Source: Nocardioides sp. S-1144 (GTDB lineage: Bacteria; Actinomycetota; Actinomycetes; Propionibacteriales; Nocardioidaceae). From it: a DNA stretch of 64,000 bases. Positions 47,572-49,897 of this stretch are shown piece after piece (position 1 is the stretch's first letter; every line of letters starts with the position of its first letter). The stretch lies in contig NZ_CP040695.2 in assembly GCF_005954645.2 (NCBI RefSeq), positions 1,860,001 to 1,924,000 of the forward strand. Reading direction: 5' to 3'. The position numbers and the translations under genes are program-made. A model generated the notes under the pieces. The model worked only from the letters and a program-made list of their open reading frames with translations. It did not search any database and was not told the origin of the DNA.

Positions 47572-48270
47572 CTAGAAGAGCCGGTGCTCGGAGTCGTCGA
47601 TGCCGCGCAGGGCGTCGTAGTCGACCACGGCGCAGGCGATGCCCCGGTCGGTGGCCAGCACCCGCGCCTGCGGCTTGATCTCCTGGGCCGCGAAGATGCC
47701 GCGGACCGCGCCCCTGCGGGTCAGCGCGGGGTCGCGGTTGAGCAGCTCGAGGTAGCGGGTCAGCTGCTCGACGCCGTCGATCTCGCCGCGACGCTTGATC
47801 TCGACGGCGACGCTGAGGCCGCCGGCGTCGCGACACATCAGGTCGACCGGGCCGATCGCCGTCGGGAACTCGCGCCGTACCAGGCTCAGGCCCTCGGCGA
47901 GGGTCGCGGGGTGCTCGGCCAGCAGCTCCTGGAGGTGCTTCTCGACGCCGTCCTTCTGCAGGCCGGGGTCGACCCCGAGGTGGTGGGTCGTCTCGTGGAG
48001 GATCTCCTCGATCAGGATCCGCAGGGTGTCCTCGGGCCCCTTCGCGGTGCTGCGCGCGGTGACGGTCCACTCGACCTGGCCGTCGTCGGTGGTGCCCTCG
48101 CGCAGGGTGCACGGCGGGCTCATCCAGTTCAGCGGCTTGTAGGAGCCGCCGTCGGAGTGCACCAGCACCGAGCCGTCGGCCTTGATCATCAGCACCCGCG
48201 TCGCCATCGGCAGGTGGGCGGTGAGCCGACCCGCGTAGTCGACCTGGCAACGGGCAACGACGAGTCTCAC
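47572..48270 (-). CDS. nucS: Mismatch-specific endonuclease NucS (EndoMS)
   Basis: A 232-residue nuclease cutting both strands at mismatches; it replaces MutS/MutL in most actinobacteria. The N-terminal beta-domain (residues 1-95) is followed by the RecB-like catalytic domain with D143 (GPVDLM), E157 and K159 (VAVEIKRRG) and Q169/Y173. The C-terminal end DSEHRLF looks like the beta-clamp-binding tail known for NucS. The GTG 48270 start gives the normal N-terminus [14 protein letters not shown] lies 8 bases upstream. A longer frame upstream is not supported. Confidence 0.95.
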
Positions 48271-48355
48271 GGGAACCGAATGTAGCGGTCGTGGATCCAG
48301 GGGTGTCGACCCGACCGCTTGCGGGAGTGGCGCGTCTGGGGTTGAGTGACGGGGC

Positions 48356-48508
48356 ATGACAGCACCTGGGCCGCTCGCGACGCAATCACCCGGCTGGTTG
48401 GCCGACACGTAGAAGGCGATCAACGACGCCTTCGAGCCGGTCGCCACCGCGGTCAGCGACGTCATCTTCTACGCCCCGGAGATCGGCGGCGTCACGATCC
48501 CGCTGATC
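48356..48508 (+). other. Interrupted 5' end of the AGCS symporter gene (in-frame amber codon)
   Basis: From ATG 48356 the symporter frame runs [18 protein letters not shown], then TAG at 48410-48412, then [20 protein letters not shown] and on into the main gene without a shift. The post-stop residues look like genuine symporter N-terminus, so this is a nonsense change, a sequencing error or an old start region now lost. No ATG or GTG lies between the TAG and 48509. Confidence 0.7.
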
Positions 48509-49897
48509 GTGCTGTGGCTCGTCGTCGCGGCCGCCGTCTTCACCGTCTACTTCCGCGGCATCCAGCTCACCGGGGTCAGGACCTCGATCGCGCTGGTGCG
48601 CGGCAGGTACAGCCGCGACTCCGACCCGGGCGAGGTCACCCACTTCCAGGCGCTCTCCTCGGCCGTCTCCGGAACCGTCGGCCTCGGCAACATCGCCGGC
48701 GTCGGCGCCGCCGTGGTGATCGGTGGGCCGGGCGCGACCTTCTGGATGATCCTGGCCGGCCTGCTGGGCATGTGCACCAAGTTCGTCGAGTGCACGCTCG
48801 GGGTGAAGTACCGCGAGATCCACGAGGACGGGTCGGTCACCGGTGGTCCGTTCCGCTACCTGCCGATCGCCTTCGAGAGGTTCGGGGCGCTCACCACCAG
48901 GGTGCTCACCACGATCTTCGCCGTCGCGCTGCTGCTCTTCGGCGCGATCGGCGGCAACATGTTCCAGGCCAACCAGACCTTCGCCCAGGCCCAGGAGGTC
49001 ACCGGCGGCGAGGACGGCCTGCTGAGCTCGGCCGGGTCGGCGCTCGTCTTCGGCATCGTCCTGGCTGCGCTCGTCGGCTCGGTCATCCTCGGCGGCATCT
49101 CCTCGATCGCCAAGGTGACCTCGCGGCTGGTGCCCACGATGGCGGTCATCTACCTCGTCGCCTGTCTCCTCGTGATCGGCGGGAACGCCGTCCAGATCCC
49201 CGACGCCATCGGCGCGATCGTCTCCGGCGCCTTCAACCCGACCGGCGTCGCCGGCGGGGCGGTCGGCGTGCTGATCGTCGGCTTCCAGCGCGCTGCCTTC
49301 TCGAACGAGGCCGGGGTCGGTTCGGCCCCGATCACGCACTCGGCGGTCAAGACGAGGCACCCGGTCAGCGAGGGCTTCGTCGCCCTGCTCGAGCCGTTCA
49401 TCGACACCGTCGTGATCTGCACGATGACCGCCCTGACCATCGTCATCGCCGACACCGCCTACTACAGCGAGGCCCGGGAGACGGTCGCGGCGGGAGGCGA
49501 CGCGCCCGACGGGGTCGTCGTCACCTCCCGCGCCTTCGAGACGTTCCTGCCGTCGTTCCCGGTCGTCCTGGCCATCGCGGTGGCCCTCTTCGCGTTCTCG
49601 ACCCTCATCACCTGGAGCTACTACTCGATGAAGGCGTGGACGACGCTGTTCGGGCGCTCGGCCCGCAGCGAGCTGCTCTTCAAGTTCCTGTTCTGCCTCT
49701 TCACCGTCGTCGGCTCGGTCATCACCTTCACCTCGGTGATCGCGTTCGCCGACGCCGTGCTCTTCGTCTGTGCGATCGTCAACCTCCTCGCCTGCTACCT
49801 GCTGCTCCCGAAGGTGCGCGACGAGCTCCGCAGCTTCCGCGAGGGACTGCGCAGCGGCGCGATCGCCGAGGTGCCGGAGGACGAGCGCGCCTCCTGA
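48509..49897 (+). CDS. AGCS-family sodium:alanine/glycine symporter, 5' end disrupted
   Basis: The readable frame codes for 462 residues of an amino-acid:sodium symporter. Family motifs include SGTVGLGNIAGVGAAV, GGPGATFWMILAGLLGM, KFVECTLGVKYRE, NEAGVGSAPITHSAVKT and FAFSTLITWSYY. About 10 membrane helices remain. The first helix (IPLIVLWLVVAAAVFTVYF) is cut if translation begins at GTG 48509, its fourth codon or so inside the helix. The upstream amber codon at 48410 blocks the likely original start at 48356. The rest of the gene has no frameshift or stop and normal codon use, so it has been recently active or is still made from an unseen start. Confidence 0.75.
   Translation: MLWLVVAAAVFTVYFRGIQLTGVRTSIALVRGRYSRDSDPGEVTHFQALSSAVSGTVGLGNIAGVGAAVVIGGPGATFWMILAGLLGMCTKFVECTLGVKYREIHEDGSVTGGPFRYLPIAFERFGALTTRVLTTIFAVALLLFGAIGGNMFQANQTFAQAQEVTGGEDGLLSSAGSALVFGIVLAALVGSVILGGISSIAKVTSRLVPTMAVIYLVACLLVIGGNAVQIPDAIGAIVSGAFNPTGVAGGAVGVLIVGFQRAAFSNEAGVGSAPITHSAVKTRHPVSEGFVALLEPFIDTVVICTMTALTIVIADTAYYSEARETVAAGGDAPDGVVVTSRAFETFLPSFPVVLAIAVALFAFSTLITWSYYSMKAWTTLFGRSARSELLFKFLFCLFTVVGSVITFTSVIAFADAVLFVCAIVNLLACYLLLPKVRDELRSFREGLRSGAIAEVPEDERAS

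Follow-up and report, generated by a model that had tools for sequence, protein, structure and literature searches.

A probable recent nonsense allele of a single-copy AGCS-family symporter gene in Nocardioides sp. S-1144

Introduction

The AGCS family (TC 2.A.25) consists of sodium:alanine/glycine symporters. A gene in Nocardioides sp. S-1144 differs from these in that a TAG (amber) codon interrupts the 5' end of its frame; the part past the amber resembles the family, including its structurally solved member AgcS (6CSE/6CSF), over nearly its full length. Stop-bearing genes of two described kinds are relevant to this locus. Strain-specific nonsense alleles and young bacterial pseudogenes are typified by a lone in-frame stop in an otherwise intact gene of a dispensable family, the stop being private to the strain, and the symporter gene shares all of these traits with no notable difference. 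In-frame stops have also been reported in bacterial genes with low dN/dS and interpreted as readthrough (Belinky et al. 2021, PMC7918605). In those genes, as here, the remainder looks conserved, but the stops were required to be common to two or more species, whereas the symporter amber is found in one only. We conclude that a dispensable, single-copy AGCS symporter gene has probably acquired a nonsense codon very recently, 18 codons past its true start.

Results and Discussion

The Interrupted Gene and Its Family

Translation of the window, the whole 64,000-nucleotide stretch of DNA analysed, bears out the preliminary description in that the frame opened by ATG 48356 is broken by TAG 48410-48412 alone and ends at TGA 49895-49897. 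No other lesion was seen in the gene. The parts of the locus are as follows.

48319..48324, + strand: predicted -35 element TTGCGG, 17 bp 5' of the -10 element; TTGCGG or TTGCGC with the same spacing in L021, L022, L004 and L034-L036
48342..48347, + strand: predicted -10 element TTGAGT, 8 bp 5' of the ATG; predicted leaderless transcript
48356..48358, + strand: probable ancestral start codon ATG, aligning with orthologue starts, mostly 16-28 codons before a conserved acidic residue
48356..48412, + strand: 5' fragment of 18 codons, closed by the amber
48410..48412, + strand: in-frame TAG (amber)
48413..49897, + strand: remainder of an AGCS-family sodium:alanine/amino-acid symporter, 494 aa, intact (PF01235, TIGR00835 and AgcS 6CSE matches)
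48509..48511, + strand: earliest in-frame GTG past the amber, within the first transmembrane helix (TM1)

In profile searches the remainder matched PF01235 (Na_Ala_symp) with 386.6 bits against a cut-off of 24 (E 2e-115) and TIGR00835 with 346.8 against a cut-off of 272.65, the latter match beginning at residue 32; the match to AgcS 6CSE (E 1.3e-66) begins at residue 35. Judged by these matches, the post-amber frame is an AGCS-family sodium:alanine symporter, with Na+-coupled alanine/glycine transport as its predicted function. It is single-copy, no paralogue being found elsewhere in the genome (4,427,648 bases in one contig). The adjoining divergent gene, at 47572-48270 on the - strand of the window, is nucS, encoding the EndoMS mismatch endonuclease. 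Many orthologues of the genus likewise have nucS beside them, which argues that the symporter occupies the orthologous, ancestral locus.

The residues after the TAG had been read as the N-terminus of the symporter, and this is upheld by their gapless protein-level alignment to orthologues and by codon usage. The 32 codons between the TAG and GTG 48509 score +20.8, the highest value among 214 coding-like open segments (next highest +3.8), under a model trained on the same genome. It is also true, as first described, that the frame offers no start codon before GTG 48509, inside TM1: ATG, GTG and TTG are all absent from the interval, and its near-start codons are ATC, ACG and CTG.

A Sense Codon in 117 Relatives

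Relatives were drawn from genus genomes at E<=1e-80 together with 80 further loci from GTDB species, and each locus was oriented by tblastn before its residue at the amber position was recorded. A comparison of codon 19 with close relatives, suggested in the preliminary description, gave a sense codon in all 117 (66 Glu and 47 Asp, making 113 acidic, with 4 Ala and no stops). The named GTDB-species records with the symporter include Nocardioides, Arthrobacter, Kocuria, Saccharothrix and Brevibacterium, and the N-terminal segment around the amber is conserved well outside the genus. One of the added loci, L052 (Nocardioides sp. IC4_145), is identical in its reading to genus locus L022 across the amber region.

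At this point the window reads WLADT*KAIN, the asterisk standing for the stop, as against the usual genus motif [W/F][L/I]xx[V/I/L]E-[E/D/K]AIN. Because orthologues carry GAG, GAA, GAC or GAT here, the simplest origin of the amber would be a change of GAG to TAG at the first codon base, 48410. The preliminary description, which advised inspecting reads at 48411, is thus slightly corrected as to the base. The codon preceding the amber is likewise out of the ordinary, being ACG (Thr) where relatives have a hydrophobic residue, and a small multi-base event may therefore have occurred instead of a single substitution; the nearest orthologues, which share no more than 82% protein identity, have diverged too far to tell the two apart.

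The Probable Ancestral Start and Its Predicted Promoter

Most orthologues have an ATG 16-28 codons 5' of the residue at the amber position. Of 39 orthologues, 23 have an upstream ATG preceded at 5-9 bp by a -10-like T[T/A]GNNT hexamer, whereas 4 of 891 control ATGs taken from these loci do. The orthologues are related, so that the 23 are not independent events. In the window the arrangement is TTGCGG-17 bp-TTGAGT-8 bp-ATG. The pattern TTGCG[GC]-N17-TTG[AG]GT-N8-ATG, kept 5' of six genus loci (L004, L021, L022 and L034-L036), predicts leaderless transcription of the symporter across the genus. Such mRNAs are common in actinobacteria, accounting in M. tuberculosis for 26% of genes with a primary start site (PMC3898074). 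Given the spacing of the -35 and -10 elements, the first transcribed base is predicted to lie at or near the A of ATG 48356, giving a leaderless mRNA. Since most orthologues start 5' of the amber and the promoter pair is conserved, ATG 48356 is, on comparative grounds, the ancestral start.

Translation could alternatively begin past the amber, at GTG 48509 or a near-cognate AUC or CUG, giving a shortened but working transporter, most of whose fold would be kept because the 6CSE and TIGR00835 matches begin at about GTG 48509. Against this, the GTG encodes a Val that 38 of 39 sequences share and so is no evolved start, no Shine-Dalgarno sequence lies at a usable distance, and the shortened protein would lack part of TM1 and an N-terminal segment conserved far beyond the genus. 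The predicted leaderless mRNA would moreover direct ribosomes to 48356, which argues that no Shine-Dalgarno-led start past the amber was in use. Nor do the relatives point to a start 3' of the amber, since the Nocardioides orthologues aligned through it carry sense codons there and most have an ATG 16-28 codons upstream. We therefore consider a start past the amber highly improbable, and the unusual start entertained in the preliminary description is not borne out: the orthologues start upstream, the promoter spacing fits ATG 48356, and neither a start codon nor a plausible ribosome-binding site lies between the TAG and 48509.

Recoding and Readthrough

The codon-usage scan covered the window plus 20 stretches of 20 kb placed at even intervals, 464 kb in total or approximately 10% of the genome, and addressed nonsense changes only. 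Within it no other strong case of a start-free, coding-like stretch directly after a stop was found, and the symporter, as the sole strong outlier, points to one lesion rather than a genome-wide habit or an assembly that is generally poor for nonsense changes. Genome-wide recoding and a high nonsense error rate were rejected on the basis of these 464 kb. A further scan looked for stops flanked on either side by coding signal and returned four sites, each with a start 1-3 codons past the stop, as adjacent genes give. Separately, L131 (1601-2800) has a coding-like frame whose first 18 codons contain no ATG, GTG or TTG and score mildly positive, perhaps reflecting a rare start codon.

No amber-reading (CUA-anticodon) tRNA is present among the 45 tRNA genes, which were found with RF00005 and typed with ARAGORN, and an amber suppressor tRNA is rejected on this ground. 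Together with the uniqueness of the symporter in the 464 kb, this gives no indication of recoding; programmed recoding or amber reassignment is likewise contradicted by the absence of the stop from all relatives. A functional gene, its amber overcome by readthrough or suppression at a useful level, would accord with the constrained appearance of the downstream protein and has a precedent in the in-frame stops of low-dN/dS genes (PMC7918605). We nevertheless regard it as very unlikely, given the tRNA complement, a stop which, occurring in no relative, is no conserved recoding site, and the lack of any Rfam RNA element near the amber. Useful readthrough and a downstream start are thus unlikely even when taken jointly. 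Also very improbable is a reading in which the amber is real and tolerated: low-level readthrough of the leaderless mRNA would still make the symporter, an accessory transporter whose expression the stop would throttle.

Age of the Putative Lesion and Probable Dispensability of the Gene

Decay was measured by leave-one-out invariants and by relative-rate comparison. Of 225 columns otherwise invariant among 38 Nocardioides orthologues, the window protein differs at 2 (0-4 in the other orthologues), and its relative rate, compared against five orthologues with three outgroups, showed no significant excess (largest chi-square 3.63). Because the downstream protein shows no decay, the lesion, if real, would be recent; for a nonsense pseudogene, the lack of any sign of relaxed selection fits a very recent event only. 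The absence of decay fits little or no unconstrained time, a gene that is still functional, or a wrong base. Loss of the symporter appears to be tolerated in the genus, since at E<=1e-80 it occurs in 44 of 215 genomes, including that of the window, and 171 are without a close homologue. A second broken orthologue was observed in Nocardioides (L129, G100:C12:54366-56240), interrupted by a frameshift at about residue 238 of 494.

The main rival is a base-call or assembly error, the former already raised in the preliminary description; the true genome would then have a sense codon here and the symporter would work. Such an error would account for the undecayed remainder and intact promoter, and for two odd codons running, ACG TAG, at positions occupied in relatives by a hydrophobic and then an acidic residue. 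The sequence, however, is a complete single-contig genome, and no other gene in the 464 kb shows a like pattern, indicating that false nonsense changes are not a general feature of the assembly. We give such an error a lesser but real chance.

The recent nonsense allele remains the best fit, combining sense codons in relatives, an intact promoter and start, and no downstream decay. The counterpoint is that it is known from one assembled genome and that absent decay is equally expected from an error or a functional gene. Of the recent single-base nonsense change first proposed, the recent nonsense change is retained, whereas the odd ACG leaves its single-base nature less certain. We propose that the stop was acquired very recently, 18 codons after ATG 48356, and that the conserved promoter would still yield a leaderless mRNA from that ATG. 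Ribosomes would then make an 18-residue peptide and halt at the UAG, with little or no transporter product apart from background readthrough.

Implications

Apart from its stop, the amber-interrupted symporter is ordinary, and if the TAG is an error, so is the gene. If the stop is real, an automatic gene caller would pick GTG 48509, so that neither the lesion nor the absence of the N-terminal segment would show, and the strain would have lost its only AGCS symporter, with a predicted function in alanine/glycine uptake by Na+-coupled transport.
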